DNA from: Candidatus Rifleibacteriota bacterium
GTDB lineage: Bacteria; Riflebacteria; Ozemobacteria; Ozemobacterales; Ozemobacteraceae
DNA length: 55,300 nucleotides
Assembly (NCBI GenBank): GCA_029565415.1
Contig: JAKQOH010000101.1
Coordinates: forward strand, 1-55,300
Direction: 5' to 3'
Under the pieces are notes generated by a model. It was not told the DNA's origin. It saw only the letters and a list, made by a program, of their open reading frames with translations, and searched no databases. Positions 7,715 to 41,563 of this stretch are shown here, one piece after another; the stretch's first letter is position 1, and each line of letters opens with the position of its first letter. The position numbers and the translations under genes are program-made.

Positions 7715-8500
7715 CCGTTTGCCCGCTCGCCCGTCACGGCGCTTCTCTGGCCGCGATGAAACCTCCGGGGGCAGCAGGAGAATGCCCCCAAGAATCCGGA
7801 TCATCCCCTCGCTCCCCGGATCCGACCCATAGGATGTGGGAAGTGGGCCGGCGGCGCCCGGATGGCGCTGCTTCGCCGGACCCGACCCATAGGATGTGGG
7901 AAGTGGGCCGGCGGCGCCCGGATGGCGTCGTTCGGCCGGCCCTGTCGAAACGCCGACCAGGGCGGTTTCCATCGCCCGGAACAGGACGGCATAGACCGCC
8001 CAGGCGAGGTCCTCGGGATCCGCTTCCCGCAATTCGCCGGCAGCGATTCCGCGCCGGATGATCCCCTCCAGGGTCGTGAGGAACCGCCGGATGACGGCAT
8101 CGACCCGGACACGGATCCCGACTTCGTCGGAATGGGCAAAGGCAAGACTGAACAACAGCCGCGTGAGAACGGGATTCTGCCGGGAAGCGCGCAGTCCCTG
8201 CCGGCAGAGCTCGAGAAGCTGGTCCCTCGACGAGAGACCGGCGGGCAGATCATGCTGGAGAATCCGGTCGTATCCGACGAGCGCCTGTTCCACCAGGGCT
8301 TCGAACAAGGCCTGCTTGTTCCTGAAGTAGTAGTAGAGCATGGGTTGCGTGACCCCGGCGGCGGCCACGATCGAACTGACGGTGGTTCCCTCGTAGCCGT
8401 GTCTGGAAAACAGCTCCAGAGCGACCTCCAGAAGTCGTTCCCGCATTGGAGCCTCTCCAGGAGCTGGTTCGGTTCCCGATGAGACCATATCCACCCCCAT
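7703..8500 (-). CDS. TetR/AcrR-family repressor of the efflux operon
   Basis: A 265-residue TetR-family regulator. The N-terminal helix-turn-helix is clear: ERLLEVALELFSRHGYEGTT, then VSSIVAAAGVTQPMLYYYFRNKQALFEALV. The ligand-binding domain follows to about residue 180. It then carries two tandem 20-residue units (core RHPGAAGPLPTSYGS) encoded by the 60-bp repeat at 7817-7936, inserted before the predicted last helix (GMIRILGGILLL), and ends in a basic tail. It heads the operon and very likely represses it, because two dyads lie over its own promoter. Two starts are possible, 8500 or 8488; the second has the better GGGGGTGG Shine-Dalgarno. Confidence 0.9.
   Translation of the reverse strand: MGVDMVSSGTEPAPGEAPMRERLLEVALELFSRHGYEGTTVSSIVAAAGVTQPMLYYYFRNKQALFEALVEQALVGYDRILQHDLPAGLSSRDQLLELCRQGLRASRQNPVLTRLLFSLAFAHSDEVGIRVRVDAVIRRFLTTLEGIIRRGIAAGELREADPEDLAWAVYAVLFRAMETALVGVSTGPAERRHPGAAGPLPTSYGSGPAKQRHPGAAGPLPTSYGSDPGSEGMIRILGGILLLPPEVSSRPEKRRDGRAGKRKSV
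7817..7936. repeat. Two tandem 60-bp in-frame repeat units within tetR
   Basis: Units at 7817-7876 and 7877-7936 are nearly identical for the first ~52 bases; only the last eight diverge much. The unit length is a multiple of three. Five of the six reading frames are free of stops; only one forward frame meets TAG. Related copies lie at about 39407-39470 and 41263-41325 inside other genes. Short arms such as GCGCC-CGGAT-GGCGC can pair. Confidence 0.9.
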
Positions 8501-8503
8501 ACT

Positions 8504-8515
8504 TACTAAATAGTA
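8504..8515. promoter_or_regulatory. Putative TetR operator, dyad 1
   Basis: TACTA-AA-TAGTA, a perfect 5-bp dyad just upstream of the tetR start codon and downstream of the predicted transcription start. Confidence 0.55.
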
Positions 8516-8518
8516 GCT

Positions 8519-8534
8519 TACTTATCGGTAAGTA
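8519..8534. promoter_or_regulatory. Putative TetR operator, dyad 2
   Basis: TACTTATC/GGTAAGTA is a 16-base palindrome with a single mismatched pair. It overlaps the -10 hexamer and the expected start site of the tetR promoter, an ideal position for autorepression. Confidence 0.7.
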
Positions 8535-8559
8535 TACGTTTCCCCTCTCCGGCTGTCAA
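8531..8559 (-). promoter_or_regulatory. Consensus sigma-70 promoter of the efflux operon
   Basis: On the minus strand TTGACA (8559-8554), a 17-base spacer and TATACT (8536-8531). The predicted start is near 8524, inside the dyad at 8519-8534. Confidence 0.85.
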
Positions 8560-8577
8560 TCCCCGTGCGGCGGGGCA

Positions 8578-8586
8578 TGGTATAGT
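8578..8586 (+). promoter_or_regulatory. Extended -10 promoter for the phosphatase gene
   Basis: TGG-TATAGT in the context GGGCATGGTATA, the same context as the element at 628-636. It lies 37 bases before the ATG at 8624 and overlaps the GTG at 8585, arguing against that GTG as a start. Confidence 0.55.
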
Positions 8587-8623
8587 GGAGGAGATCCCCC
8601 CAGAATCCGGAGAGGAACGGCGT

Positions 8624-11473
8624 ATGACCCGGTGGCAGCTTCTGATGAGATGGGCCGCAACCTGCCTCGTGTTTTTCGCCCTTCCTCTCCTGCTCGTCGT
8701 CTACGGGCTGGGTATCCGGTGGGAAACGCTGGAAAAGGACTCGATCGAGGAGTCGTACCGCCTGCTCGACGAGGTTCTGCTGACGTTCCGGAAACGGGAA
8801 AGCACGCCCGACCTGCTGAACGCCCTCCTGTTCCGGCTTCACGAGATCGCCGACACGGCAACCGACCGGACAGCCGTCCTGCGGCGCGGCATCGCCTCGC
8901 TGAAACGGCGGTTTCCCGGCACGCTGCGGTTCACGGTGACGGACGGCAAAGGCGAGATCATCGGGGAGCTGACGGATGGAACACCGCCCCGGGGGCTCGT
9001 CCGTCGCTTGTATGAAGCCGTCTCGACAACCCCGCCCCGTGAAAAGGGGCTCAATGAGCAGGAGACGATGCGTAAGCGGATGTCGGACATGTGGTCGATG
9101 TTCCAGAATTTCATCGGCCGCGAAGCCCAGCTCTCCCGGATGGATCTGTATCAGCAAGATCTGTTCGAGGTCTCGTATCTCGAGGAGGGGCGGTGGTTCG
9201 GCTACGCCACGACGGAGCGGGGCGGCTTCTTCGTCCATGCGAACCACACCCCCGACTGGCCACTGCTCGCCATCAGGGATCTCCAGTCACGCTTCATGAA
9301 GAGCCGTGCAGCCCGACTTGGCATCGAGGTGGGCCTGTACGACCTGAACTCGACGGCATCCGCGTCACCCGCCCTTGCCCTGGCTCTCGGGGAGTATCAG
9401 CAGTCCACCCGGGAACACCACCTGATCGGCGAGCGGCTGTTCACGATCATGCCTTTCACGGCGACCTCCCGCCTCTGGGCCTCACGCCCGCGCAGCGTGG
9501 CGATCGATTACGGCAACGCGCGGCTGGGCCTCGTCACGCTCGTCACCCTGATCTTCACGGTCGGCGTCCTGATCAGCTACTTCGTGATGGTCCGCGGCCT
9601 GCGGTTTTCGTTTCCCATCCGCTGGCGCCTGGTGGTTCTCTTCGGCTTCGCGAGCGGCATCCCCCTGGCTGTAGTCGTGTTCGCCGGCTGGGATTACCTC
9701 AACCAGAAGTACAAGACCCGCATCCGGCAGACCCACGACGAGACGGAACGGGCTCTGCGTGCCTTCGACGCCCGGTTTCCGCAAATGCGCGGCATGATGG
9801 AGATCACGTCCGCACGGCTGGCGGAACGGTGCAACAGCGATCGGGGTTTCGAACGCGTGCGAAAGGTCATGCACGTCTTCAGCCGGCAATATTTCACGAA
9901 CAATATGGTCCTTTATGATTCATCCGGCGACATCGTGATTGATCTGAACGCGGGCGGTTCCGGCGAACAGTCGCTGAAGGCCCGCAAAATGATGGGACTC
10001 GTCGGCGCCCAGGTCATCGCGAACCTGAACAAGGAAAAATATTCGGGTAAACTCGACGCCGCCTCCATCATCATCGAAACGGTTTCCCAGGGCGAGAATC
10101 TCCCCGCGCATCTCACCCGCGAAATCGGACGAGTGCTCAACCTTTCGATGGCCGGAAACGAGACCTGGATGCTGATGCTCCCGATCCGCTCCTCCTCCGG
10201 CAGAGTCACCCACGTCCTGCTCGCCTACTGGCGGAAATTCGATCTCGAACTCGTATATCTCTCGAAATATCTCATTCCCTCCCAGCGTGCCCTGCCCGGC
10301 TTCCGGCTGTACGGCTGGAACGCGCGCGGCAAGAACACGCCGCTGGATTTCCCCCTGGCAGGAAAACTGGAGCCCCTGCTTGCGAATCTGAAGCTCCGCC
10401 AGGCGACCACCATCTCCGAGGTGACGCGACATGACGCAACCTGGCTCGCGACCGGCATCAAGCCCAGAGAACTCGCGAACCACCTGCTCGTGGGGCTCAT
10501 GCCGAAAGCCCCGATCGACGAGGAGATGCGGCTCCTGGAGCGCCGGCTCCAACTGTTCACCGGCATGATCCTCGTGATGAGCGTATTCCTCGGCATCAAC
10601 CTGTCGCAACGGTTCCTCACCCCCATCGGCGCGCTGGCGACGGGCGTCGATGCCATCCGGCAGCGCCGCTTCGAACACCGCGTCCCGGATGCCGGCCAGG
10701 ATGAACTGGGCGATCTTGCCCGCACCTTCAACGGCGTCATGGAAGGCCTCGCCGACCTCGAGGTCGCCCGCATCGTGCAGGAAAGCCTGTTCCCCTCGAA
10801 CGAGGTGAAGGCCGGCGAATACGCCATCTACGGCGAGTCTCACACCATGACGGCCCTCGGCGGCGATTATTTCGATCTCCAGCAGCTCGCCGACGGCCGG
10901 GTGCTCGTCCTCGTCGGCGACGTGTCGGGCCACGGTGTCCCCGCCGCCCTGGTCATGGCCATGGCAAAAGCTCTGGTCGAGCGCGAGAGCGAGCAGACAA
11001 CCGCCCCAGAAATTATCCTCGAGGTTATCCATCGAGTTTTCTACCGCACCCTGAAACGGAAACGCATGATGACCTGTTTTCTCGGCATCCTCGACCCCGC
11101 GGCCCACCGTCTGCAGTATGCCAACGCCGGCCACAACTACCCGGTCAAGTTCCGGACCGGCGAGCAGCCGCTGTTCCTCGAACTGAACGGCATGCCTCTC
11201 GGCAGCATGAAGAAGAACGTGATCAAACCGGCCGAGACCGACCTGGTGCCGGGCGACCGCATCGTTTTCTACACCGACGGCATCGTCGAGGCGAAAATCG
11301 GCGGCGAGGAAGTCGGATACCAGCGCATGAGCGAGGAGGTCGCGCGCCTCCTGTGCGACGACGCCCGGCAGAGCTGCGAACGCATCTTCGCCTGGCATCG
11401 CAGCCTGACCGGAACCACCGACCAGCAGGACGACATCACCCTGCTCGTCCTGACGCGAGCCACGACCACATGA
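8624..11473 (+). CDS. SpoIIE/RsbU-type membrane serine phosphatase with HAMP
   Basis: A 949-residue membrane-bound PP2C-like phosphatase of the SpoIIE class, expected to dephosphorylate an anti-sigma antagonist in partner switching. TM1 is near residues 10-28, an extracytoplasmic region follows, further TM segments are near 300-322 and 335-359, a large second sensory region follows, then a TM near 640 and a HAMP linker (about 665-712). The phosphatase domain (about 725-949) has ALGGDYFD (near 745), GDVSGHG (near 764) and the closing DQQDDITLLVL (near 936), so the metal Asp residues are present. I chose ATG 8624 because GGAGAGG precedes it and the upstream GTG lies in the -10. The stop overlaps the hrpB start (ATGA). 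A possible substrate type, a STAS protein, is encoded at 14984-15334. Confidence 0.92.
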   Translation: MTRWQLLMRWAATCLVFFALPLLLVVYGLGIRWETLEKDSIEESYRLLDEVLLTFRKRESTPDLLNALLFRLHEIADTATDRTAVLRRGIASLKRRFPGTLRFTVTDGKGEIIGELTDGTPPRGLVRRLYEAVSTTPPREKGLNEQETMRKRMSDMWSMFQNFIGREAQLSRMDLYQQDLFEVSYLEEGRWFGYATTERGGFFVHANHTPDWPLLAIRDLQSRFMKSRAARLGIEVGLYDLNSTASASPALALALGEYQQSTREHHLIGERLFTIMPFTATSRLWASRPRSVAIDYGNARLGLVTLVTLIFTVGVLISYFVMVRGLRFSFPIRWRLVVLFGFASGIPLAVVVFAGWDYLNQKYKTRIRQTHDETERALRAFDARFPQMRGMMEITSARLAERCNSDRGFERVRKVMHVFSRQYFTNNMVLYDSSGDIVIDLNAGGSGEQSLKARKMMGLVGAQVIANLNKEKYSGKLDAASIIIETVSQGENLPAHLTREIGRVLNLSMAGNETWMLMLPIRSSSGRVTHVLLAYWRKFDLELVYLSKYLIPSQRALPGFRLYGWNARGKNTPLDFPLAGKLEPLLANLKLRQATTISEVTRHDATWLATGIKPRELANHLLVGLMPKAPIDEEMRLLERRLQLFTGMILVMSVFLGINLSQRFLTPIGALATGVDAIRQRRFEHRVPDAGQDELGDLARTFNGVMEGLADLEVARIVQESLFPSNEVKAGEYAIYGESHTMTALGGDYFDLQQLADGRVLVLVGDVSGHGVPAALVMAMAKALVERESEQTTAPEIILEVIHRVFYRTLKRKRMMTCFLGILDPAAHRLQYANAGHNYPVKFRTGEQPLFLELNGMPLGSMKKNVIKPAETDLVPGDRIVFYTDGIVEAKIGGEEVGYQRMSEEVARLLCDDARQSCERIFAWHRSLTGTTDQQDDITLLVLTRATTT

Positions 11474-14046
11474 CCGCCCGGCCGCTTCCGACACTCCCGA
11501 TTTCCGAAACCGTTCCCGCGATCCTCCAGGTCCTCGCGAACGAACGCAATCTCGTTCTTACGGCCGCCCCGGGCGCCGGCAAGACGACGATCGTCCCTCT
11601 CGCCCTGCTCAACGAACCCTGGCTCGCGGGGAAGCGGCTGCTCATGCTCCAGCCCCGGCGCGTCGCCGCCCTTTCATCCGCCCGGCGGCTGGCCGCCCTT
11701 CACGGCACGCGGCTCGGTGAGACGGTCGGGTACCAGGTGCGGTTCGACCGGCGCATCGGCCCGGCGACGCGGCTGGAAGTGCTGACCGAAGGGCTTCTCA
11801 CCCGCAGGCTTCAGGACGACCCGTTCCTGGAGGGCGTGGGGCTCGTGATCTTCGACGAGTTCCATGAGCGAAGCCTCCAGGCCGATCTGGGCCTGGCAAT
11901 GACACGCGAGATCCAGCAGACCGTGCGGCCGGATCTGCGCATCCTCGTCATGTCAGCAACCCTGGACCCCGGCCCCCTCCAGCGGTTTCTCGCCCCCTGC
12001 CCATCGCTGGAGGGCAAGGGCTTTCTCCACCCCGTCACCCGCATCTGGTCCGCGAAAGCTCCCGGACCGGATCTCTGTCGCGCGGCAGCCGACACGGCCG
12101 TCCGGGAACTTTCCAGCGATCCGCTCGGCGGGGATCTGCTCGTCTTCCTGCCGGGTGCCGGGGAAATCACACGCATGCAGGATCTGCTCGCGGAGTCCCC
12201 CTCCACCCGCGGCGTCGACCTGGTCCCCCTCCACGGCAGCCTCCCGCTCGACCGCCAGGACGAGGCTCTCCGGCCATCGGGAAAACGTCGAATTATTATA
12301 TCTACAAATATTGCCGAGACTTCTCTGACGATCGAAGGGGTGACCTCCGTCATCGACGGCGGCTGGTGCCGGTTGCTGCGCCTCGACCCCGCGACCGGCC
12401 TCGAGAAGCTGCAGCTCGAACGCATCAGCAAGGCCAGCGCAGAGCAGCGCGCCGGCCGCGCCGGCCGCCTCGGGCCGGGGCGCGTGGTCCGGCTCTGGGC
12501 CGAATCCGACCATCTCACGCTTCCCGACGCCACACCGCCCGAGATCCTCCGCACCGACCTGGCCGCGGTGGTTCTGACGCTCGCGGCCTGGGGAAAAACC
12601 GATCCGGCCGCCTTCTGCTGGTTCGAGCCCCCGCCCGGCCCGGCGCTCGCCGCAGCCCGAGAGCTGCTCCGCATTCTGGGGGCGATCGATCCGGCGGGAC
12701 ATCTCACGCCGCTCGGCCGGCGGATGGCGGCGATTCCGGCCGCGCCCCGCCTCTCCCGCATGCTGCTCTTCGCCGCGGATCACGGTCTCGCGCGGGAAGG
12801 TGCGGATCTGGCCGCCCTGCTCGGCGAACGGGATATCGCCATCCGCGGTCAGGACCGGGAAGCCTCCATCGTCAGCCGCAGCGATCCGCTGCTGCGCCTC
12901 GACATGCTCGAAGAGGCGCGCGCAACCGGCTTCCGAGGCGGAAACGGCCGGATCGATCAGCGGGCCGCCGCCGCGGCGGACCGGGTCGCCTCCCAGCTTG
13001 CCGGCCTGGCCGGGGCATCGTCGCGGAGCCGCGCCGAGGCCCCACCTCGAGGCGCCGAACGGGACCGCCTTCTCCTGCAGATCATCCTGGCAGGCTACCC
13101 TGATCGCGTCGCCCGCAAGCGCCCCGACAGCCCGACGCAGTTCCGCATGGCGGGCGGTCGCGGCCTCGTCCTGGGTCCGACCTGCTCGGTCCGCGATGCC
13201 GAGCTGATCACCGTGCCCTCAGCCGACGCCGCCGGCGGGCGCGGGATCGGCAACGAAGCCCTGATCCGGTGGGCATCGGCCGTCGAACCCGCATGGCTGG
13301 CGGCCCTCTTCCCCCACGCCATGAGCGATGAACGGGAAGTCTTCTTCGATGCGGCCCGGGAGGCCGTGGTTGCCCGCCGACGCCGGCGGTATCTCGATCT
13401 CCCCCTCGACGAGTCCGTCTGCCCGCTCGCCCCCGAAGAACAGGAAGCCGCCGCCCGCCTGCTCGCCGCGGAGGCCGCAAAAGATCCGCGCCGGGCATTC
13501 GCCTGGGATGACGCCTTCGACCAGCTCCTGCACCGGCTCACCCTTCTGCGGCATCACCTGCCGGAACAGCAGCTTCCGCAGATCGACGCCGCCTGGTGGA
13601 TCGCGCACCTCCCCGAAATCGCCTTCGGGGCACGCAGTTTCGCCGATCTGCGTCGTCTGAACCTCGAACGTGAGCTCCTCGGCAGGCTCACCCATGCCCA
13701 GCGCCAGGCCGTCGAAATCCTCGCACCCGAGCGGCTCGCAGTGCCATCGGGAAGCCGCATCCGTCTCGAGTATCAGGCCGACGGCCCGCCCGTTCTCGCC
13801 GTCAAGCTCCAGGAGCTGTTCGGCCTCACCGAGTCGCCCCGGGTCGCCGGAGGCCGTCTGCCCGTGCTGGTCCATCTGCTCTCGCCGGCCGGCCGGCCGC
13901 TCCAGATCACCCAGGATCTGCGCAGCTTCTGGCTGAACACCTATCCCGCGCTGCGACGGGAAATGCGCGGCCAGTATCCGCGTCACCCCTGGCCCGAAGA
14001 CCCGTTCACGGCCGTTCCGACGCGCCGGGTCACCCCGCGCCGCTGA
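11470..14046 (+). CDS. hrpB: ATP-dependent RNA helicase HrpB
   Basis: An 858-residue DEAH-type helicase of the HrpB branch. Motif I is GAGKTT (near residue 38), motif II DEFHERS, motif III SAT, motif V ISTNIAETSLTI and motif VI QRAGRAGR. The HA2 region follows and the HrpB C-terminal domain closes with the characteristic QYPRHPWPEDP and a short TRR tail. HrpB is widespread in bacteria but its exact RNA target is not settled. The ATG overlaps the phosphatase stop. A 22-base AT island (12291-12312, two G/C) encodes the IIISTNI part of motif V. Confidence 0.95.
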   Translation: MTARPLPTLPISETVPAILQVLANERNLVLTAAPGAGKTTIVPLALLNEPWLAGKRLLMLQPRRVAALSSARRLAALHGTRLGETVGYQVRFDRRIGPATRLEVLTEGLLTRRLQDDPFLEGVGLVIFDEFHERSLQADLGLAMTREIQQTVRPDLRILVMSATLDPGPLQRFLAPCPSLEGKGFLHPVTRIWSAKAPGPDLCRAAADTAVRELSSDPLGGDLLVFLPGAGEITRMQDLLAESPSTRGVDLVPLHGSLPLDRQDEALRPSGKRRIIISTNIAETSLTIEGVTSVIDGGWCRLLRLDPATGLEKLQLERISKASAEQRAGRAGRLGPGRVVRLWAESDHLTLPDATPPEILRTDLAAVVLTLAAWGKTDPAAFCWFEPPPGPALAAARELLRILGAIDPAGHLTPLGRRMAAIPAAPRLSRMLLFAADHGLAREGADLAALLGERDIAIRGQDREASIVSRSDPLLRLDMLEEARATGFRGGNGRIDQRAAAAADRVASQLAGLAGASSRSRAEAPPRGAERDRLLLQIILAGYPDRVARKRPDSPTQFRMAGGRGLVLGPTCSVRDAELITVPSADAAGGRGIGNEALIRWASAVEPAWLAALFPHAMSDEREVFFDAAREAVVARRRRRYLDLPLDESVCPLAPEEQEAAARLLAAEAAKDPRRAFAWDDAFDQLLHRLTLLRHHLPEQQLPQIDAAWWIAHLPEIAFGARSFADLRRLNLERELLGRLTHAQRQAVEILAPERLAVPSGSRIRLEYQADGPPVLAVKLQELFGLTESPRVAGGRLPVLVHLLSPAGRPLQITQDLRSFWLNTYPALRREMRGQYPRHPWPEDPFTAVPTRRVTPRR
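12291..12312. other. AT-rich island in hrpB
   Basis: 22 bases with only two G/C in a gene that otherwise uses G/C-ending codons. The codons read ATT ATT ATA TCT ACA AAT ATT. Confidence 0.75.
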
Positions 14047-14061
14047 TCGCCGGAAATGCAA

Positions 14062-14092
14062 CACCGCCGCAGCCAGAAAAGCCGCGGCGGTG
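14062..14092. terminator. Hairpin between convergent hrpB and flagellin genes
   Basis: A 9-bp perfect stem CACCGCCGC / GCGGCGGTG with a 13-base loop, between the two stop codons. There is no strong T run on the plus side; TTGCATTT follows it on the minus side. Confidence 0.5.
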
Positions 14093-14112
14093 CCGGAATC
14101 TTCGGAATCGGT

Positions 14113-14895
14113 TCAGGACAGCAGCGAAAGCACCCTTGAGCGGGAGGTCTCGTCGAGCTTGAAGACGCTCGTGGCAACCTGCTGCTGAAGCTGCTGGGAG
14201 GTCAGCGCGATGACCTGCTGCGCCAGATCGGCATCGGCGATGCGGGACTGGGCCGCAACGGTGTCGATCAACTGCTGCTGGAGACCGGACACTTCTCCTG
14301 CGATGCCGTTGCTCACGGCTCCAAGCCGCGCGCGTTCGGACACGACGCCCTCCCCGGCCCGGCTCGCGAGCGTCAGGGCATTGCCCGCCCCCTCGGCCGT
14401 CATCACATCGATGCCCGAGGTGCCGAGCGCGGCCGCGCCGAATGCCGGAATCGCCAGCGTATTCCCGTTCTGGAGCTGCATCTTCAGGCTTCCATCGAGA
14501 AGCGGCTTCGTGTTGAAGGTCGTCATGTTCACGGTCTGGTCGATCCCTGCGTTGAGCTGGGCGATCTCGGCCTGGATGGCCTGGCGGTCTTCGGCGGTGA
14601 GCGTGCCGTTCGCCGCCTGCACCGACAGCTCGCGGATGCGTTGCGTCATCTCGGAAATGCCGGCCATGCCGCCTTCCGCCGTCTGAAGCAGGGAGATCTC
14701 ATCCTGCCGGTTGGCGATGCCGCGGGCCAGGCCGCGCGTCTGGGACTCGAGCGCCATCGACACGGCAAGAGCGGCCGGATCGTCGGCAGCCGAAAGGATC
14801 TGCTTGCCGGAAGCGATCCGCTGGATGGTTTTGTCCTGGGCGCGATGAAGTTCGTTCAGCCGGTTGGCTGTCGACAGCGACGTTTTCTCGACCAT
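14113..14895 (-). CDS. Flagellin-like protein (short, D0/D1 only)
   Basis: A 260-residue flagellin-family protein, the structural subunit of the flagellar filament. The N-terminal D0/D1 helices are well conserved: RIASGKQILSAADDPAALAV, then the EISLLQTAEGG stretch and RIRELSVQAANGT. The C-terminal helix is SQQLQQQVATSVFKLDE followed by SRSRVLSLLS. The middle is very short, so there is no D2/D3 outer domain. ATG 14895 has GAGGTGAG just upstream. No other flagellar gene is in the window, so I cannot say whether this is the main filament protein or a paralogue. Confidence 0.88.
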   Translation of the reverse strand: MVEKTSLSTANRLNELHRAQDKTIQRIASGKQILSAADDPAALAVSMALESQTRGLARGIANRQDEISLLQTAEGGMAGISEMTQRIRELSVQAANGTLTAEDRQAIQAEIAQLNAGIDQTVNMTTFNTKPLLDGSLKMQLQNGNTLAIPAFGAAALGTSGIDVMTAEGAGNALTLASRAGEGVVSERARLGAVSNGIAGEVSGLQQQLIDTVAAQSRIADADLAQQVIALTSQQLQQQVATSVFKLDETSRSRVLSLLS

Positions 14896-14953
14896 TGCCT
14901 CACCTCATATCACACGGTTTCTGTACACCAAACGCCGATCGTTCTCTCTTCCA

Positions 14954-14982
14954 AATATAGGCGGGAAATCCTGTTTTGTCGA
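14954..14982 (-). promoter_or_regulatory. Candidate promoter of the flagellin gene
   Basis: On the minus strand TCGACA (14982-14977), a 17-base spacer and TATATT (14959-14954). It lies about 60 bases before the flagellin ATG. It resembles a sigma-70 site; I saw no clean sigma-28 site. Confidence 0.5.
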
Positions 14983-14983
14983 A

Positions 14984-15334: not shown

Positions 15335-15341
15335 GGGGGCC

Positions 15342-15370
15342 ATCATACGTGGCCTGCCGACCGGTGTCAA
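15342..15370 (-). promoter_or_regulatory. Consensus promoter giving a nearly leaderless STAS mRNA
   Basis: On the minus strand TTGACA (15370-15365), 17 bases and TATGAT (15347-15342). Only seven bases separate the -10 from the ATG at 15334, so the transcript should begin at or next to the start codon. Confidence 0.75.
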
Positions 15371-15395
15371 GGACGGAGACAGGGGAAGAACGGCC

Positions 15396-18869: not shown

Positions 18870-18893
18870 GGGAAGCTCCTTCCGGTATCGGTC

Positions 18894-20131: not shown

Positions 20132-20163
20132 CGCCATGCCCCTCCGTTCATCGGAATACGGCA

Positions 20164-22884: not shown

Positions 22885-22897
22885 TGGAGGTTCACTC

Positions 22898-29863: not shown

Positions 29864-29895
29864 CACCCGCCTCATCCTCGGGATCGCCATCCCGG

Positions 29896-29925: not shown

Positions 29926-29966
29926 GCGTCCAGGCGAAAGACATCAGCCGGAGGATCGAAGAGAGC

Positions 29967-31256: not shown

Positions 31257-31260
31257 CCCG

Positions 31261-33902: not shown

Positions 33903-34756
33903 GACACCCGACGATCGAGTGGCAGGTCATCGGCTCGTGCAATTATTCCTGTAGCTATTGTATTCAGAGCCCCGCTCACCGGAAGGGGATGCCCGACGCG
34001 GCCGCGATCGATGCATTCCTCGGCTTTTTCGGCCGTCTGCCGGAAGCCTTCGAGATCAAGATGAGCGGCGGAGAGCCGTTCACCCACCCCGCCTTCCTCG
34101 ATGGAATCGTCGACCGGCTGATGTCGGAAACGCCCCACCGCGTCTCGGTGCTGACCAACCTGTCGGCGCCGCGCGAACGGCTCGAGCGGTTCGTCCGGCT
34201 GACCCGGGGAAGGCTGAACGTCGTTTCGGCTTCGCTCCATCTCGAGAGCGTCACGGCGGAGCAATTTATAGAGCATGCATTATATTTCAAGCACATTCTT
34301 TCTCCCGACGTCCGGTTCGTCATCAATTCGGTGCTCGTTCCCGGGCGCCTCGAGCGGATCGCGCAGGCGGCGGATCGGGTGCGGGCAGCCGGCCTGAGGT
34401 TCTTTCCCCAGTTGATGAAGACGAAAACGGGCCTGGCGAGGTATACGGATGCCGAGCGACCGCTGCTGGAACGCCTTCTCGGTGACGCCCCCGGCCCGCG
34501 ACGCGCGAATCTCGCCCCGAGTTATCGCGGCAGGCGGTGTCATGCCGGCGTCGCGTATTTCGTCGTGTCCCAGAACGGCGACGTCTGGAGCTGTCGCACG
34601 GCGAAACGGCACGGCGAGGGGAAGCTCGGCAACGTCCTGGCGGGCAACGTCCGGCCGGCCGGCCAGCCCCGGATCTGCCCGTGGGATATCTGCCCCTGCA
34701 CGGTGCCGGCAAATCGCGGCATGATCGAGGGGATCGGGGAGGACAACGCGGAATGA
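33899..34756 (+). CDS. Radical SAM protein 2
   Basis: A 285-residue radical SAM protein starting at GTG in GTGA overlap with the previous stop. Cluster motif C14-NYS-C18-SY-C21, then KMSGGEPFTHP with the classical GGEP. The C-terminus carries Cys-x17-Cys and then Cys-x4-Cys-x-Cys, closing with CTVPANRGM. These spacings are the same in radical SAM protein 3, so the two are close paralogues. Two AT islands (33940-33966 covering the cluster motif, and 34262-34302) lie in it. Confidence 0.9.
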   Translation: MRHPTIEWQVIGSCNYSCSYCIQSPAHRKGMPDAAAIDAFLGFFGRLPEAFEIKMSGGEPFTHPAFLDGIVDRLMSETPHRVSVLTNLSAPRERLERFVRLTRGRLNVVSASLHLESVTAEQFIEHALYFKHILSPDVRFVINSVLVPGRLERIAQAADRVRAAGLRFFPQLMKTKTGLARYTDAERPLLERLLGDAPGPRRANLAPSYRGRRCHAGVAYFVVSQNGDVWSCRTAKRHGEGKLGNVLAGNVRPAGQPRICPWDICPCTVPANRGMIEGIGEDNAE

Positions 34757-35652
34757 ACCCGACCCCCCGGCCGGCGGAAGGGGTCGTGAGCTGGAACGTC
34801 ACGACGGCCTGCAACCTTCGCTGCTCCTACTGCACCCAGCGCCACAAGGCGGATCGGGGACGACCTCCGCGATCCGCCGCGGGATTTCTCGCGGGGTTCG
34901 CGCGGCTGGACGGCCGCTGGGAGATCAAGATGTCGGGCGGAGAGCCGTTCCTGCACCCGGATCTGGACGCGATCGCCGGCGGCATTGCCCGGCTCGGCCA
35001 CCGGGTCTCGATCGTGACGAACTTCACCGCCCCCCGCAGCCGGCTCGAGACGTTCGTCGCCGCCGCGTCAGGCCGCATCGGCATCGTGTCCTGCTCCCTC
35101 CATCTCGAACACGTGCGGGGCGAGGTGGAGCTCGCAGAGTTCATCGCCCGGGCCCTCTGGCTCTCCGGACGGCTGGCCGTTTCGGCCGATCCGGCCCTGC
35201 CGAAGCCGCATCTGTGCGTCACCTCGGTCGCAACCCGCGCCGCCCTGCCCCGTCTTCCGGCACTGGCCGGGCGGTTTGCCGACGCCGGGCTGACGTTCAA
35301 GATCCAGCCCGAGAAACAGAACCGCGACGTCATCCCCTACTCGGACGCCGAGCAAGAGCTCCTGCTGGCCCTGGGCGGCCACAACCTGACCGGGAAGATC
35401 GAGCACTCGTATCGGGGGCTTCCCTGCTGGGCCGGGGCGCGCTCGTTCATCCTCGACGATCTCGGGGGGGCCTGGCGATGCTACCCGGCCCGCCGGTTCC
35501 GCACCGAGTCGCTCGGCGACTTCACGGGGGAGCGGTTTGTCCTCGCCGACGAGCCCCGGCCCTGCCTTTACGCCCACTGCAACTGCACCGTTCCCATCGC
35601 GCGCGGTATGATGCCGCAGGGTTCCCGACACCACCAGGAGACGGAAGAATGA
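34753..35652 (+). CDS. Radical SAM protein 3, paralogue of protein 2
   Basis: A 299-residue radical SAM protein, ATGA-coupled to the gene before and after. Cluster motif C20-NLR-C24-SY-C27, then KMSGGEPFLHP. The C-terminal Cys-x17-Cys and Cys-x4-Cys-x-Cys followed by CTVPIARGM match protein 2, and the middle shares TNFTAPRSRLE against TNLSAPRERLE. The pair probably arose by tandem duplication and may act on related positions of one substrate. Confidence 0.9.
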   Translation: MNPTPRPAEGVVSWNVTTACNLRCSYCTQRHKADRGRPPRSAAGFLAGFARLDGRWEIKMSGGEPFLHPDLDAIAGGIARLGHRVSIVTNFTAPRSRLETFVAAASGRIGIVSCSLHLEHVRGEVELAEFIARALWLSGRLAVSADPALPKPHLCVTSVATRAALPRLPALAGRFADAGLTFKIQPEKQNRDVIPYSDAEQELLLALGGHNLTGKIEHSYRGLPCWAGARSFILDDLGGAWRCYPARRFRTESLGDFTGERFVLADEPRPCLYAHCNCTVPIARGMMPQGSRHHQETEE

Positions 35653-36557
35653 GATACAAGACGTTCCGCGCCCTCGTCATCATCGGCCTGATCGGCGCTG
35701 CCGCCGGCGGATTCCATATCTGGCAGCTCCGGAAGGAGCGGGCCGATCTCGAGCGGGAAATCCGAACCTTTCACGAACACCGCGATGAGGAACAACGGCA
35801 GATCGCCCTCATGGATCAGCAGCAGATGGCGGCCGCCACCGCCGATCCGGTCCCGGCACCCGATGCGCCCCCCCTTCCTGCCGGAGCCATCGTCCTGCGG
35901 CCGATGGATCTCGAGATTCTCGCCGCCGCAGCCGCGAACATTTCGGGCGACAAGGTGAAGGATGCGATCCGGGGCCGATCCTGGAAGGTCAATCTGTTCC
36001 GCGATGCCGGCCAGTCGAAGGTGAACCGCCTGAAGATCGATCTCGACCGCGACGACAAGTGGGACGAGAAGTGGTCCTGGGACCCCGAAGGCCTCCAGCG
36101 CCAGATCGCTCCGGCAGACGACGAACGATACACGGTTCAGACCTGGTACGACGTGAACCTGAACGCCTGGGTCGCGGAAAAGCCGTCGGTCGGAACGGCC
36201 CCCGTGGTCGCCGAAACGGCCCCCGGCATCCCTGCATCCCAAGCCGGTCTGCCGGATGGCGCCGTCGCGCTGCGACCGATGGACACGGAAATACTCGCCG
36301 CCGCCGCTGCGAATATTTCGGGCGACAAGGTGAAAGATGCGATCCGGGGCCGATCCTGGAAGGTCAACCTGTTCCGCGATGCCGGTCAGCCGAAGGTGAA
36401 CCGATTGAAGATCGATCTCGACCGCGACGACAAATGGGATGAGAAGTGGAGCTGGAAAGAGGGCCGCATCACGCGCGAAGTCGCCTCGAACGATGATGAG
36501 AGCTACGATCGCCGGTTCCTTCTCGACACCGCGGCCAACGCCTGGCTGCCGAACTGA
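35649..36557 (+). CDS. Membrane-anchored protein with two near-identical Asp-rich repeats
   Basis: A 302-residue protein with one N-terminal TM (ALVIIGLIGAAAGGFHIWQL) and a short coiled coil. Two 62-residue repeats (about residues 83-144 and 208-269) share 60 of 62 residues. Each has SGDKVKDAIRGRSWKVNLFR and an Asp-rich loop DLDRDDKWDEKW that looks like an EF-hand/dockerin-type calcium loop. It probably faces the periplasm. It is ATGA-coupled to radical SAM protein 3 and is the last gene of the unit, so it may be a target or partner of those enzymes; this is inference. Confidence 0.8.
   Translation: MRYKTFRALVIIGLIGAAAGGFHIWQLRKERADLEREIRTFHEHRDEEQRQIALMDQQQMAAATADPVPAPDAPPLPAGAIVLRPMDLEILAAAAANISGDKVKDAIRGRSWKVNLFRDAGQSKVNRLKIDLDRDDKWDEKWSWDPEGLQRQIAPADDERYTVQTWYDVNLNAWVAEKPSVGTAPVVAETAPGIPASQAGLPDGAVALRPMDTEILAAAAANISGDKVKDAIRGRSWKVNLFRDAGQPKVNRLKIDLDRDDKWDEKWSWKEGRITREVASNDDESYDRRFLLDTAANAWLPN
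35895..36080 (+). repeat. 186-bp direct repeat, copy 1
   Basis: Matches 36270-36455 at about 166 of 186 positions, with only two amino acid differences. The offset is 375 bases, a multiple of three. Confidence 0.9.
36270..36455 (+). repeat. 186-bp direct repeat, copy 2
   Basis: Second copy of the coding repeat that begins at 35895. Most differences are silent third-position changes, as expected for a recent or homogenised duplication. Confidence 0.9.
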
Positions 36558-36573
36558 CCTTTCTGGCCCCGTT

Positions 36574-37593
36574 TCAGGGGAAGGCGCGGCAGAGCATCGA
36601 TTCGAACAGCGTGCCGGTCTTGCGGGCCTTGAGCAGGGCGATCGGTGACCAGTTGAAGGCATCCTGGCGCGGCTTGAACAGGGAAGCCATCAGGGGCCTG
36701 TTCATCCGGTTGAGATCGAGCGGCGGGGCTTCGGGCGCCCATTCCAACGTCACGGGAGCCTTCACGGCCCAGTATTCGCGGCCGCCGACGGGGCTTCCAT
36801 ACCTCGCGGGCACCAGGCCATTGTCGGCGAAAGCGACCAGCAGAGGCTCGAGCGCGGCAACCGTGCTCGGCAGCGTGTCATGCATCAGCACGACCCCGCC
36901 CCGGCCGCCGCTTCCCAGGTGCAACTGGCGTTTCACGTTTTCGCAGGTCCGGATCACACTGCGATTGCGCCAGTCGTAGGGATCGACCGACCAGAGCATG
37001 ACATCCATTCCCTCCTGCCGGACGGCCTGAAGCACGCTCTGATTGAGGCCTCCGTAGGGGGGCCGGAAAACACGCGGCCGGACACCGGCGACCTGGTGCA
37101 CGAGCGCATTCAGAGAGCGAATCTCCTCGAGAGCCTTTTCGACGCCGGCAGGGGCGAGGTTCGCATGATGAGCGGTATGATTTCCGATCACATGCCCTTC
37201 GTCCCGCATCCGGCGCACGATTTCGGGGTATTTGCGCACGTTGGTGCCGACGACGAAGAAGATGGCCTTCAGATCGTGCTTCCGCAGCGTCTCGAGAATG
37301 GCGGGTGTCGTATGCGGATTGGGACCGTCATCGAACGTCAGCAGAAACTGGCGGTTGCGTCCCATGGTCGAGACGATGAACTGGCGGTTGTAGAAGACAC
37401 TCCCCCCCTCGGTCGGCACGGCGGGAACGGCCTGGTCGGCGAGATCCCGGTTGGCGGCAGCGGCAGGGGCGAGTTCGGCACGCGGCGTCAGATTCGTTCC
37501 GGCGGGAACGGCTTCGAGAGCCGCCGTTCCGAAGGCCAGAAGGGCGAGACAGAGCGGAAGAAAACGCGCAGCGGAAAACATATGCGTACTCAT
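36574..37593 (-). CDS. Secreted polysaccharide deacetylase (NodB homology)
   Basis: About 339 residues from ATG 37593; the next ATG at 37581 gives an even better signal peptide (FSAARFLPLCLALLAFG). The NodB domain (about residues 80-270) has all catalytic motifs: TFDDGPNPH (motif 1), GNHTAHH with the metal His pair (motif 2), RPPYGGLN (motif 3), DPYDW (motif 4) and LMHDTLP (motif 5). It should remove N-acetyl groups from an extracytoplasmic glycan such as peptidoglycan or an exopolysaccharide. It is convergent with the gene before, with 16 bases between stops. A TTGCCG-17-TACCAT pair near 37632-37677 on the minus strand may be its promoter. Confidence 0.9.
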   Translation of the reverse strand: MSTHMFSAARFLPLCLALLAFGTAALEAVPAGTNLTPRAELAPAAAANRDLADQAVPAVPTEGGSVFYNRQFIVSTMGRNRQFLLTFDDGPNPHTTPAILETLRKHDLKAIFFVVGTNVRKYPEIVRRMRDEGHVIGNHTAHHANLAPAGVEKALEEIRSLNALVHQVAGVRPRVFRPPYGGLNQSVLQAVRQEGMDVMLWSVDPYDWRNRSVIRTCENVKRQLHLGSGGRGGVVLMHDTLPSTVAALEPLLVAFADNGLVPARYGSPVGGREYWAVKAPVTLEWAPEAPPLDLNRMNRPLMASLFKPRQDAFNWSPIALLKARKTGTLFESMLCRAFP

Positions 37594-37643
37594 GGCAGTC
37601 AAGATATCGGCATCCGGAATCTCATTTCTGAGAGGCAGACGTA

Positions 37644-37652
37644 TGGTATGCT
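37644..37652 (+). promoter_or_regulatory. Extended -10 promoter for the ankyrin-to-NtrC operon
   Basis: TGG-TATGCT, a third instance of the TGG-TATxxT element seen at 628 and 8578, about 50 bases before the ankyrin gene. The -35 is poor. Confidence 0.45.
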
Positions 37653-37703
37653 GACGGAGCAGATACGGCAACCATCGTTTCGGCATGATATGAGGCATCG
37701 CAG

Positions 37704-38738
37704 GTGATGAAGAACCGATTCACACGCATCCCGGCGCTCGCGGCACTCGTGGCGCTCGTTCTGATCGGCCCGTTTGCGGGGCTGAGCCGCGCCGGGGACA
37801 TTCACGAGGCAGCCAAGGCCGCGGATCTCGAGCGTATCGCCGAGATTCTCGACCGGACCCCCCGGGAAGTGAACTCGGTGACCATCTCCGGCATGACGCC
37901 GGACGGGTACCGGATGAGCCCCCTCCACTGGGCCGCCCGGATGGGCCATCTCGACGTCGCACAACTGCTGCTCGAGCGCGGAGCCGACCCGCAGGCCCGC
38001 ACCTCGCGCGGGATGACCCCGCTGCACATGGCCGCGCTGCGCGGGAACGCCTCGATGACCGGCTTCCTGTTGGAACACGGCTCGAAAGCCACGGCCACCG
38101 ACAGCTTCGATGCCACCCCGCTCCATCTCGCCGCCGTTCACGGCTCGGCTCCGACGATCGCCGTGCTGCTGCGACACGGCGCCGATCCCGATGCGCCGGG
38201 AAGCCATGGCGCCACGCCCCTGATCGAGGCCGTCCGCCAGGGTCATGCCGGAGCCGTGTTCCTGCTCGCTTCCGCGGGGGCAGACCTGACCCGGGCCGAC
38301 GATGCCGGGGAAACGGCCCTGCATGCCGCCGTCCAGTGCCGCCAGCCGGTGATGCTCCGGTTTCTGCTCTCGGCCGGTGTTCCCGTCTCCGCCGCCACCC
38401 GCACGGGACGGACCGCGCTTCACCTGGCGGCCCAGGATCCCTGGCCGGAAGGGGCGGAGCTGCTTCTCGCCGCCGGCGCGCCGCCCGATCCGACGGATCC
38501 CGAGGGGAACACGCCGCTGCTGCTCGCCGGCAGAAAAATATACTGGGAACTATCCCTGTCCCGAACCCGCTCACGCGACTGGATCGACACGTTCGACCGG
38601 ATGCTGACGCTTTTCGTCCGGCACGGCGCCGACACGGAACGCGCGGCCCGCGACGGGACGACGATCGGCACCCTCGCCGCCTTCATCGTCGGCACGCCCC
38701 GGTTCGAACGCCTGATCCGTGATGCGAAACGGCGCTGA
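37704..38738 (+). CDS. Exported ankyrin-repeat protein
   Basis: A 344-residue protein with a signal peptide (ALAALVALVLIGPFAGLSRA) and about seven ankyrin units (SPLHWAARMGHLDVAQLLLERGAD, written here only in part: MTPLHMAALRGNASMTGFLL, ATPLHLAAVHGSAPTIAVLL, ETALHAAVQCRQPVMLRFLL). Ankyrin solenoids bind proteins; the export signal puts it in the periplasm or outside. GTG 37704 or ATG 37707 may be the start. It is the first gene of a five-gene run with short gaps (15 bases to the next). Confidence 0.85.
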   Translation: MMKNRFTRIPALAALVALVLIGPFAGLSRAGDIHEAAKAADLERIAEILDRTPREVNSVTISGMTPDGYRMSPLHWAARMGHLDVAQLLLERGADPQARTSRGMTPLHMAALRGNASMTGFLLEHGSKATATDSFDATPLHLAAVHGSAPTIAVLLRHGADPDAPGSHGATPLIEAVRQGHAGAVFLLASAGADLTRADDAGETALHAAVQCRQPVMLRFLLSAGVPVSAATRTGRTALHLAAQDPWPEGAELLLAAGAPPDPTDPEGNTPLLLAGRKIYWELSLSRTRSRDWIDTFDRMLTLFVRHGADTERAARDGTTIGTLAAFIVGTPRFERLIRDAKRR

Positions 38739-38753
38739 GCGAGGAGTCGCCAC

Positions 38754-40586
38754 GTGAACACGCCCCGCCGGCCGCTCGTTCCGGCCCCGATGCCGTTCGT
38801 GGGCCTTGCCCTCGCCGTCTCTGCGCTGCTGTTTCTGCTCTGGGACGTCGCCGCGCCGGTGGGCACCTGGAATATATTCATCCCTATTCCTTTTGAAGCG
38901 ACGGGCACGGCTGACCGACTCGACCCCGCTCTCGCTCCCGCCAACCTTCTCGCGGAGTATCGGGCGACCGTCGTGGCCGCCATCAACATCCCCGGGAACC
39001 CCTCGTCGCCGGTCTGGAATGTCATGATCGCCTCCGAACCCCATCCCGGGCTTCTCCTGACCCTCACGGCCCCCTGCACGTCAGCCGTCGCGGACGCCGC
39101 CCGCAGGATGCCGGCCCGCGCCGTGAACGAGATCGACCGCCGACGCGGGGATCTGTTCAGCCGTCTCGGCCTTCAACTGGCCTCTGAGGCCGAACGCATG
39201 GAGGAGCGGCTGGCATCGGCAGCAGACGGGGCGGGCGGATTTCCCGACGGAGACCAGCTCCGGAACCTCGAGCGCCGCGCCGGAGCCCTCGAGCGTGAGC
39301 GCCAGGAGCTGCTGAGCCAAATCCTTCTGATCGAGAAACGGCTTTCCCCGGGAAAACGGCCGGCCGTCTCGCGTTCTTCCAGAAAAAAGGCGAGAGGGGT
39401 CAAGACCACAACCGAACCAGGCGGGAAGTGGGCCGGCGGCGCCCGGATGGCGCTGTCCAGCCGAACCTCTCTTCGAGCCCGTCTCCGGAAAACGCCGGCT
39501 CGCCGGCGCCCCCCCGCAGCTTCCGCGAAACTCTCCAGGAACCGGCTTCAGCAGGAACTCACCCGCCTCAGGAGCGCCCTCGAGACGGCCGACCGGAATC
39601 TGCTCGAACTCGCCCAGGAGCGCCAGGGGCTCGCTCTCCGGCACGAACGGAAATCCGGTGCCGATGCGGAACTCACGCGGATCGATGACGAGAATCGCCG
39701 CCTGGCCGTGCTGTTCGAAGCCGGGTATGCCAAACCCGACCCGGCCAGGGCCGTGACCTCGGCCCCTCCGCTTCACCTCCGCGTCTGGAGCGCCGCCCGC
39801 CCCGTCGCTCTCCTGCTCGGCTTTCCTGTCGCCTGGCTGATTCTGGGGCGGCGCCGGACCGGAACACCAGGCAGGGCCTATGCAGACACGGGGATCTCCC
39901 TGCTCGGCACCCTTCCCGCCCTCCTCCCGGAAACCCTGGAAGAGATGCTTCATCCCGCCTGCTTCGCCGCCGCCGCGCCCCGGGAAGCCCTCGCGATAAG
40001 AAACATATGTCTATATATCAAACAAAATACCGAGGAGGCCGGCCGGAAAACCCTGGCGATCGTCGGAACCCACCCCGGGTGCGGCACTTCCGCCGCGGCC
40101 GCCCTTCTCACGGCGGCCCTGACCAACGAACTCCACCACATCCTTCTCCTCGATCTTCACTGGGCCCGACCGGCCCAGCACCGCCTCTGGTGGATCCCCT
40201 GGAACCCCGGAGCCGTGTCCTGGCTGGCTTCCACCACGGTTCCGGCATCGATCCGCACCGGCAACCAGGGCGAAGCCCCGCGGGCGGTCGTGATTCCCGC
40301 CGGCCCGCGCCCCCCCGATCCCGAAACGGCGCTCGCCTCCGCGCCCTGGCCAAAATGGCTTTCGGGTTTTCCCGGCCGACCGGCAGAACTGCTGATCGCC
40401 GACACCGGCAACCTCGACGAGGCCCCCGAAACGCTTCCGCAGCGGCTCCAGGCCTTTGACGCCGTCGTGCTCGTGACCTGCCCCGACTCCGAAGACCGGG
40501 TCAAGCGTGCTCTGAACCTCCTGGAACCCACGCAGAAGCCCCTCCTCGGGATTCTGCTCACCGAGATCAGGGAACAGACGGCATGA
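38754..40586 (+). CDS. Polysaccharide co-polymerase / BY-kinase-like protein with defective P-loop
   Basis: A 610-residue protein with the layout of a Wzc-like protein: TM1 (near residues 17-38), extracytoplasmic domain, two coiled-coil arms, TM2 (near 345-365) and a C-terminal cytoplasmic ATPase-like domain. The P-loop reads GTHPGCGTSAAAA, with Thr where the catalytic Lys of BY-kinases (PGEGKS) should be, although the A' motif LLLDLHWARP is kept; no C-terminal Tyr cluster is present. It is probably a non-catalytic chain-length or assembly factor. Starts at GTG with GAGGAG in front. Between the coiled-coil arms it contains a copy of the dispersed repeat (KWAGGARMAL) flanked by a basic stretch. 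AT islands: 38870-38897 and 39995-40030. Confidence 0.75.
   Translation: MNTPRRPLVPAPMPFVGLALAVSALLFLLWDVAAPVGTWNIFIPIPFEATGTADRLDPALAPANLLAEYRATVVAAINIPGNPSSPVWNVMIASEPHPGLLLTLTAPCTSAVADAARRMPARAVNEIDRRRGDLFSRLGLQLASEAERMEERLASAADGAGGFPDGDQLRNLERRAGALERERQELLSQILLIEKRLSPGKRPAVSRSSRKKARGVKTTTEPGGKWAGGARMALSSRTSLRARLRKTPARRRPPAASAKLSRNRLQQELTRLRSALETADRNLLELAQERQGLALRHERKSGADAELTRIDDENRRLAVLFEAGYAKPDPARAVTSAPPLHLRVWSAARPVALLLGFPVAWLILGRRRTGTPGRAYADTGISLLGTLPALLPETLEEMLHPACFAAAAPREALAIRNICLYIKQNTEEAGRKTLAIVGTHPGCGTSAAAALLTAALTNELHHILLLDLHWARPAQHRLWWIPWNPGAVSWLASTTVPASIRTGNQGEAPRAVVIPAGPRPPDPETALASAPWPKWLSGFPGRPAELLIADTGNLDEAPETLPQRLQAFDAVVLVTCPDSEDRVKRALNLLEPTQKPLLGILLTEIREQTA
39407..39470. repeat. 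In-frame dispersed repeat, copy in the co-polymerase gene
   Basis: Bases 39423-39455 match 33 bases of the tetR 60-bp unit exactly (GGGAAGTGGGCC to GATGGCGCTG). The flanks (CCGAACCAGGC before, TCCAGCCGAA after) look like diverged or shortened parts of the same unit. Here it is translated as KWAGGARMAL, on the opposite strand relative to its use in tetR. Confidence 0.85.
39995..40030. other. AT-rich island in the co-polymerase gene
   Basis: 36 bases with eight G/C: codons ATA AGA AAC ATA TGT CTA TAT ATC AAA CAA AAT, just before the ATPase-like domain. Confidence 0.8.
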
Positions 40587-41563
40587 ACCCGTTCCGCCGA
40601 TGGGCCCTCGTTCTGCTCCTGGCCGCCACCCTCCTCCTGCCGGCGGCCCCCGCCGCCTGTGACACGCTCCAGATCCTGATGCCGTCTCGCCTGAACCACC
40701 CGTCATGGGTCCTGGACGCGCTCCGGCAACGGTTCGCCACCCTCCTCGACCACGAGGTCACCCTCCACCTCCTTCCGACAACCACCGATCTGGGGCCGGT
40801 GGACGTCGCATCCGTCACCCTCCTGATGATCGAGGAAGGCACCCATCTCGCCTCCGTCCCCGCGAGCATGCGCCCGACCCCGATCTATTTCGACGTGTTC
40901 TGGATGCTCGGCACCCGCCTCGACCTGCTCGCGCCCGTCGCCTCCGCTCCCCCCACGACACTGGCCGAGTTTCAGACATGCCTGGAGCGGCTTCACCGGC
41001 TCCACCCCGAGCGGTTTCCCTGGTTCGAATCCCTCGAGGCGCCGCTGACCCTGTTCCGGCTGCGCCAGACCATGCGGAACGGCTCCGCCGACCCGGCTGC
41101 GGCCCTGCTGCAGAAAGCCCTCGACCGGAAATGGCTGAACCCCTTCTCCCTCGAATCCGATGAAACGCTGGCTTGCGAGGTGCTCGAAGCCGGCGATGCC
41201 GTATTCTCCTCGATCTGGATCCCCGCAAGCCTCGTCTCGGCCCCCCCCGCTTCGCAGCCCATTCCCGCTCCGCACGAGTCGGGAAATGAGCCGGCGGCGC
41301 CCGGATGGCGCAGTCCAGCCGGATTCATCCGGTTTTCCCCCTTCCCGGGAGAAATCGGCCCCGCTCCGGTGCCCCGCATCCGCCTGCGCCTCTGGGCCGA
41401 CCACGATGACCGCCGCTGGTCAGCGGCCCGGATGCCCCCCTTCCACCCCACCCTGGATCTGCAAGACGCGGTGTTCCTCCCCTGCGACATCCCGTCTGAA
41501 CGGCTCTGGGTCAAGCGCGACAGCTCGCGCTTCTTCAACCGCCTGATCGAAGGCGACCTCTGA
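40583..41563 (+). CDS. Periplasmic solute-binding-like protein
   Basis: A 326-residue exported protein with signal peptide WALVLLLAATLLLPAAPAA. The order of features fits a shortened family 1 solute-binding protein: an early strand (LQILMPSRLNHPSWVLDALR), a middle hinge (PIYFDVFWMLGTRLDLLAPV with TTLAEFQ) and a late GDAVFSSIWIPASL. No ABC permease or ATPase is near; instead a sensor kinase gene follows 11 bases later, so it may be a sensory binding protein. ATGA overlap with the gene before. It holds another copy of the dispersed repeat (NEPAAPGWRS) in a third reading register. Confidence 0.65.
   Translation: MNPFRRWALVLLLAATLLLPAAPAACDTLQILMPSRLNHPSWVLDALRQRFATLLDHEVTLHLLPTTTDLGPVDVASVTLLMIEEGTHLASVPASMRPTPIYFDVFWMLGTRLDLLAPVASAPPTTLAEFQTCLERLHRLHPERFPWFESLEAPLTLFRLRQTMRNGSADPAAALLQKALDRKWLNPFSLESDETLACEVLEAGDAVFSSIWIPASLVSAPPASQPIPAPHESGNEPAAPGWRSPAGFIRFSPFPGEIGPAPVPRIRLRLWADHDDRRWSAARMPPFHPTLDLQDAVFLPCDIPSERLWVKRDSSRFFNRLIEGDL
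41263..41325. repeat. In-frame dispersed repeat, copy in the solute-binding-like gene
   Basis: Bases 41281-41322 match the copy near 39423 with few changes (CGGGAAATGAGCCGGCGGCG…), including the 3' flank TCCAGCCG. The register is shifted by one base relative to the 39423 copy, giving NEPAAPGWRSPAG. Confidence 0.8.

Follow-up and report, generated by a model that had tools for sequence, protein, structure and literature searches.

The 60-bp unit that recurs in the window (the whole 55,300-nucleotide stretch of DNA analyzed here) is a member of a dispersed DNA family of Ozemobacteria, which belongs to one phylum as far as searched. We are highly confident that this family consists of short, non-autonomous, mobile DNA elements. 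Its copies are dispersed, were inserted at exact length into sites that are uninterrupted in relatives, carry covarying hairpins, are read through in all six ways and share a target preference. From this we infer that they move via a single-stranded, folded intermediate, by means of an enzyme acting in trans. The original prediction of a mobile or copied DNA element tolerated in proteins is thus supported, both by orthologues that are without the segment and by the many copies in related genomes, and its likening of the unit to Rickettsia palindromic elements (RPEs) is fair as to behavior. The covarying two-hairpin structure, the intergenic copies, an 81-bp sister form and the preference for a target motif go beyond it.

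Copies of the unit in the window

A scan for the core sequence located it on the forward strand at positions 7838, 7898 and 39423 (exact) and 41281 (two mismatches), with a chance expectation of 0.02. The first two copies are in tandem and give the tetR array a period of 60 bp, so that the number and arrangement of copies originally described were confirmed. Unit bounds in the window were taken as columns 4–63 of the copy alignment (Table 1). All copies were found inside open genes and in frame with their hosts, and the claim that they are read in three ways also held: antisense in tetR, and sense in the remaining two genes, with a different frame in each. No convincing fifth copy was found in the window using the covariance model with filters off (next best E = 0.046).

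Table 1. Copies of the 60-bp unit in the window and the genes that host them.
Feature	Position	Strand	Remarks
60-bp unit 1, tetR tandem array	7822..7881	+	Read antisense; array absent from 10/10 aligned orthologues
60-bp unit 2, tetR tandem array	7882..7941	+	Read antisense; array absent from 10/10 aligned orthologues
60-bp unit in gene of 610-aa protein	39407..39466	+	Sense, one frame; sole orthologue found is without exactly 20 aa
60-bp unit in gene of 326-aa protein	41265..41324	+	Sense, another frame; 11/11 aligned orthologues are without exactly 20 aa
Host gene, TetR-family regulator (Pfam TetR_N)	7703..8500	-	Start codon uncertain
Host gene, 610-aa protein	38754..40586	+	No Pfam match; "co-polymerase" is the label of the original prediction
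Host gene, 326-aa protein	40583..41563	+	No Pfam match; "solute-binding-like" is the label of the original prediction

The sequence of the 610-aa protein includes a putative P-loop-like stretch (GxxxGxGTS). Its gene is adjacent to that of the 326-aa protein (38754–41563) with a 4-bp overlap, each of the two having one unit. A direct repeat of 258 nt, with 80% identity between its two parts and 375 bp between their starting points, is also present in the window (35874–36131 and 36249–36506).

Whole-unit insertions relative to orthologues

The insertions in the window amount to exactly 120, 60 and 60 bp in three unrelated genes, none of which is broken. The TetR regulator was aligned with the ten best of its 74 matches other than the window's own, and all ten are without exactly 40 residues. 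For the 326-aa protein, all 11 aligned relatives are without exactly 20 residues (one fragment, P0090, was left out of the alignment). For the 610-aa protein, the protein search gave a single other relative; it is without the same length and has an additional one-residue gap 15 columns away. This is the opposite of orthologues sharing the segment in one frame. At the DNA level, about 44 kb of the window (4351–48562) are collinear with contig C176 of genome G001 (an assembly from Candidatus Ozemobacteraceae). Distances between fixed anchors show that G001 lacks 120 bp in the TetR gene and 60 bp in that of the 326-aa protein; in the gene of the 610-aa protein, the linker is too diverged for a base count. 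All these empty sites are seen in divergent relatives only.

Several hosts outside the window were compared in the same way, dnaX of G017 and hemC of G001 being the clearest cases. The dnaX gene of G017 contains two identical 60-bp units at a site that is uninterrupted in G018 and G016, and all 20 aligned relatives of its product (of 24 relatives with loci) are without the units, the net difference being 40 aa in 15 of them, 39 in 3 and 41 in 2. Two units are likewise present in HemC of G001 and absent from all 15 aligned relatives (again of 24 with loci), with a net difference of 41 aa in the five that were measured. A NadB-like flavoprotein carries one 60-bp and one 81-bp unit, neither of which occurs in its five aligned relatives.

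In the structure model of TetR, the insert falls within a low-confidence stretch (residues 166–210, pLDDT <50) between two helices; the prediction for the 326-aa protein was poor (mean pLDDT 39). HemC of G001 aligns to PDB 1ypn up to 255 and again, weakly, from 301, a P-type ATPase host shows two 10-residue gaps at the insert when aligned to a solved relative, and in a MiaB-like enzyme the insert is located between its two domains. Host proteins receive 20, 27, 40 or more extra residues, apparently in loops or linkers.

Distribution and abundance of the family

A covariance model of the 60-bp form (R1) gave at least 103 matches in G017, at least 35 in G018, at least 12 in G006 and at least 10 in G001 (E up to 0.01). 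Elsewhere among the 39 genomes of the phylum, one weak match was obtained in each of G024 and G025 and none in the remaining 33. A second model (R2), representing the 81-bp form, gave at least 119 matches in G017, where each of the 119 candidates scored was a match, and 5 in G018 (E up to 1e-4), 3 of which overlap R1 matches; at the same threshold it had no match in the other genomes searched. No more than 133 candidates were scored per genome, which makes the counts lower bounds. The family is thus not limited to the copies first noticed: many further ones were found in related genomes, both within genes and outside them, and every one of the six read-throughs is represented. Three loci lie in the 55 kb of the window, as against 8 in the 4.3-Mb assembly of G001.

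The abundance of the 81-bp form was estimated from a blind sample of G017 (400 kb), consisting of 20 segments of 20 kb placed regardless of matches on long contigs known from earlier matches. It contained 39 R2 matches, of which 36 in 29 clusters were kept after removal of two overlapping opposite-strand matches and one 34-nt match; the only two R1 matches in the sample both overlapped R2 matches. This corresponds to approximately 90 copies per Mb in the sample and, by extrapolation, approximately 640 per 7.1 Mb. Several copies were observed at contig ends (G017:C29:22, G017:C168:42, G018:C204:22, G018:C41:10573 and G017:C61:5), indicating that arrays probably break assemblies and that the true numbers are higher.

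Beyond the phylum genomes, a scan for the core pattern in GTDB species contigs returned a single record, in Ozemobacteraceae, and no viral contig contained the pattern. The tetR array had no match in the plasmid and phage collections.

Some variants were seen within the family. G006 has a subfamily (GACACCAGCGCCACGGATGCG...) of five nearly identical copies (L112, L113, L114, L115 and L116), one of them inside a P-type ATPase gene, which probably represents a recent burst. In G017, two copies (L169:784 and L170:3056) have a shorter form of about 56 bp, with hairpin 1 followed by a single long hairpin; this length is not divisible by three, and neither copy lies wholly within a called gene. A variant of the 81-bp form with a spacing of 84 bp, also divisible by three, occurs at G017 L163:4612–4776.

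Conserved secondary structure

The 60-bp unit starts with CCGACC, continues with hairpin 1, a linker (GAAGTGGGC) and hairpin 2, and ends with GGAC. Hairpin 1 is a stem of 5 bp that follows CCGA. In hairpin 2, the inner stem is nearly invariant and the outer stem varies between genomes with compensation, one pair appearing as C-G, G-C and U-A. Across 25 copies (21 distinct), 93.7% of cells were paired in the covariation analysis (A1) and six pairs had changed on both sides. The covariation score was 0.302, as opposed to at most 0.083 when partners were slid by 1–3 columns. The 81-bp form keeps the first hairpin, and its second is replaced by a stem bearing two hairpins. Here 94.0% of cells were paired (A6) and the score was 0.117 against at most 0.057 for slid partners; five pairs had changed on both sides, a number equalled by one slid control. 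Since the structures were named after inspection of the sequences, these comparisons are biased in their favor, and since copies within a genome are closely related, independent changes are fewer than the cell counts imply.

An RNAalifold consensus recovered hairpin 1 and, in hairpin 2, the inner stem together with four outer pairs. It paired the first CCCG with the TGGG before hairpin 2 and not as the closing pair of hairpin 2; both pairings of CCCG are possible in a tandem. Folds of single sequences were not unusually stable for their composition. The window had no match in Rfam 15 at gathering score, and a scan of four loci gave one chance-level match (E = 1) that lies off the unit. The unit has CCGACC at one end and GGAC or GGGG at the other, which do not form an inverted repeat, and units occur singly or head-to-tail.

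Placement and reading frames

Clusters, frames, flanks and lengths were counted on 95 of 96 matches, a weaker second match at L121 (22–81) being left out. Around the R1 matches in the four genomes and the window, 39 of 89 clusters were inside called genes, 40 between genes and 10 partly overlapping. The blind sample of G017 gave 12 clusters inside, 13 outside and 4 partly overlapping called genes. As 90% of this sample was called coding, genes are avoided, yet far from spared; the gene caller was home-made and overcalls in GC-rich DNA, and some called ORFs look spurious. The 39 copies or clusters located in called genes cover all six read-throughs (10, 8, 6, 6, 5 and 4), and the 12 in the blind sample cover five of them. 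A Pfam scan covering 25 host ORFs of the frame set placed domains around the insert or on both sides of it in 10 and identified no domain in 5.

It had been emphasized that five of the six frames of the tetR unit are open. This is true and, taken alone, unremarkable: single-base shuffles of the 60-mer had a mean of 4.3 open frames and reached five or more in 45% of cases. More generally, 60-mers have 5–6 of 6 frames open where 4.3–4.75 are expected from composition, no more than composition predicts, and stop-free frames were therefore rejected as a sign of selection on this form. The 81-mer has all six frames open compared with 3.3 expected, and 2% of single-base shuffles reached six. Unit length, measured as the length of the model match minus six, was a multiple of three for 32 of 34 copies inside genes and for 27 of 34 between genes. 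The difference is small and in the expected direction; intergenic units are almost as uniform in length as those inside genes, and selection for frame is accordingly not proven.

Target site

Omitting 120 bp from the dnaX gene of G017 restores a length match to G018 and G016, codon for codon. In the orientation of the element, the site reads GGCGAC^CCGTCGG. The flanks of 60-bp copies (48 left and 44 right) showed GGAY before and CCNTCC after the unit. This set was drawn from the first 60 of the 95 copies, with lengths of 64–67; repeated flanks were dropped, and flanks resembling a neighboring unit were removed by a crude string filter, by which at least one single copy, L156, was wrongly lost. 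Nearly the same preference was found for 81-bp copies (30 left and 26 right flanks), and the preferred site is approximately GGNY^CCNTCC. Because the junction within the element's own tandems is GGAC^CCGACC, targets resemble the junction.

No target duplication of several bp was observed, and at most CC is present on both sides; an empty site at base level is available at dnaX only. Part of the right-hand CC may be the element's own, which makes a 2-bp duplication possible. An ATTC repeat at the unit at 41265 was considered as a target duplication and rejected, as its parts are 62 and not 60 bp apart and misfit the net insertion.

Proposed mode of insertion and candidate enzyme

We propose that a single unit or a head-to-tail pair inserts at the preferred site without a long target duplication, with CC as a possible 2-bp duplication or crossover core. 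Insertions in genes would survive if the frame is kept, as it will be with lengths (60 and 81) that are multiples of three and a GC-rich sequence poor in stops. Survival inside genes would require nothing else than these two properties. The combination of subterminal hairpins, a junction-like target, the absence of a long duplication and tandems of whole units suggests a folded single-strand intermediate, as in IS200/IS605.

Members of the IS200/IS605 family show a target preference, produce no long target duplication and have target-like sequence at the element's own end. Like these or RAYT-mobilized elements, the Ozemobacteria unit has subterminal hairpins and a target preference and lacks a long target-site duplication; for IS200/IS605, two subterminal secondary structures are described at the ends (excerpts of PMC6006769). 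Unlike IS200/IS605, the unit contains no internal transposase. We tentatively name an HUH Y1 transposase (IS200/IS605 or RAYT type) acting in trans as the likeliest enzyme, a putative link for which the genomic connection is weak. G017 and G018 have one RAYT-like Y1 gene each (61% identical). No good copy of the unit was found near either: the nearest is about 7 kb away in G017, and in G018 the contig ends 0.6 kb past the gene. Y1 genes similar to these are present in genomes without copies, and in the copy-bearing G001 and G006 no Y1 gene was found in assemblies that are fragmented and incomplete. A dedicated RAYT was rejected on account of the missing close copies at the Y1 genes and the similar genes in copy-free genomes. 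A MITE of a DDE transposon was also rejected, there being neither terminal inverted repeats nor a target-site duplication of several bp.

Comparison with known elements

The kind of behavior described here is already established by RPEs and intragenic REPs; the Ozemobacteria family fits that behavior, and not their tags, size or order. No earlier description of the family was found in excerpts of the open-access literature. RPEs are short repeats, 105–146 bp long and with terminal inverted repeats, which in Rickettsia are found intergenically as well as in frame within conserved genes for unrelated proteins, and one enzyme carrying an RPE is reported to be active (excerpts of PMC2229807 and PMC10969869). 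In the same manner, the Ozemobacteria unit is in frame in unrelated protein genes, absent from orthologues and also intergenic. It differs from RPEs in its length of 60 or 81 bp, the absence of a terminal inverted repeat, the head-to-tail arrangement, its two or more unlike hairpins and its occurrence in a distant phylum. Rickettsia provides the best-known case of selfish DNA in conserved proteins, commonly explained by genome decay in bacteria that live inside cells. The same behavior now appears in a distant phylum, where one uncultured genome has at least 100 copies (several hundred if extrapolated), dnaX and hemC are among the hosts and all six read-throughs are in use. An old question, tolerated inserts or a source of new protein sequence, can thereby be put to the test in a second lineage that is independent of the first.

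Mitochondrial double-hairpin elements are compact, two-hairpin mobile units with many copies. The Ozemobacteria family, likened to them by description only, is also two-hairpin and multicopy; those elements are organellar, and we know of none with a fixed 60- or 81-bp unit in all coding frames.

We also considered, as a doubtful reading, that the family is an independently evolved class of single-strand hairpin elements, whose length is held at multiples of three (60 and 81) and which is partly adapted to life in proteins. Such a class would use a junction-like site, insert whole units in any of the six frames, form linkers of 20–27 residues in conserved proteins outside Rickettsiales and owe its movement to an enzyme that belongs to none of the known REP/RAYT pairs.

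Alternative explanations

The best-surviving alternative, which is rather unlikely and overlaps the mobile-element reading in being mobile too, is that a RAYT has spread a conventional REP family of the GTAG or CGTC type, or a REPIN, which by chance also lands in genes. REPs are described as hairpin repeats with up to thousands of copies, mostly intergenic with some in ORFs, including intragenic ones in DNA-repair genes such as uvrA of O. terrae; CGTC REPs are presented as having no dedicated transposase, and TGTC and CCTC as variants of CGTC (excerpts of PMC3733652). The high copy number, the hairpins, the copies inside ORFs and the RAYT-like Y1 genes of G017 and G018 all agree with such a family, as do the TGTC and CCTC inside G017 units. 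These two motifs are internal, though, and confined to two G017 forms, and whereas REPs have terminal GTAG or CGTC, none of the four unit sequences contains GTAG and only one contains CGTC, again internally. A REP is a single palindrome of 20–40 bp, mostly found in inverted dimers; the unit is a larger composite of unlike hairpins, 60 or 81 bp long, in direct tandems. GTAG REPs flank their RAYT gene, but no good copy adjoins the Y1 genes here, and G001 and G006 have copies without a Y1 match, albeit in incomplete assemblies. Finally, the 12 of 29 blind-sample clusters in genes (by our own gene caller) differ from the mostly intergenic placement given for REPs in the excerpts of PMC3733652.

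It is improbable that the unit is a transcribed structured RNA (a terminator, a regulatory element or an RNA that binds protein) with some of its copies happening to fall in ORFs. Such an RNA would account for the covarying hairpins and perhaps for a GGA in a hairpin loop of the unit, which we take to be reminiscent of CsrA sites, but the unit has no Rfam match, both orientations occur within genes, the stability of the fold is ordinary for its composition and the host genes are unrelated. We give equally little weight to a sequence that is not mobile and was multiplied through slippage, recombination or gene conversion. Slippage could produce tandem pairs, such as the identical units of dnaX, but it cannot place a first unit in unrelated genes, nor does it fit a target motif common to single insertions.

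An assembly or binning artefact is very improbable. The related assemblies are fragmented and have several copies at contig ends, as an artefact might; the family is nevertheless found in four separate genomes and the window, in different genes, with frame and unit length preserved in the inserts. A short protein repeat or domain common to the three proteins, to which the in-frame position of every window copy might point, can be dismissed: it is rejected by the frames (three in the window, six overall) and by the aligned orthologues without the segment, and is at odds also with the 40 of 89 clusters and 13 of 29 blind-sample clusters outside called genes and with pairs that covary in the DNA.
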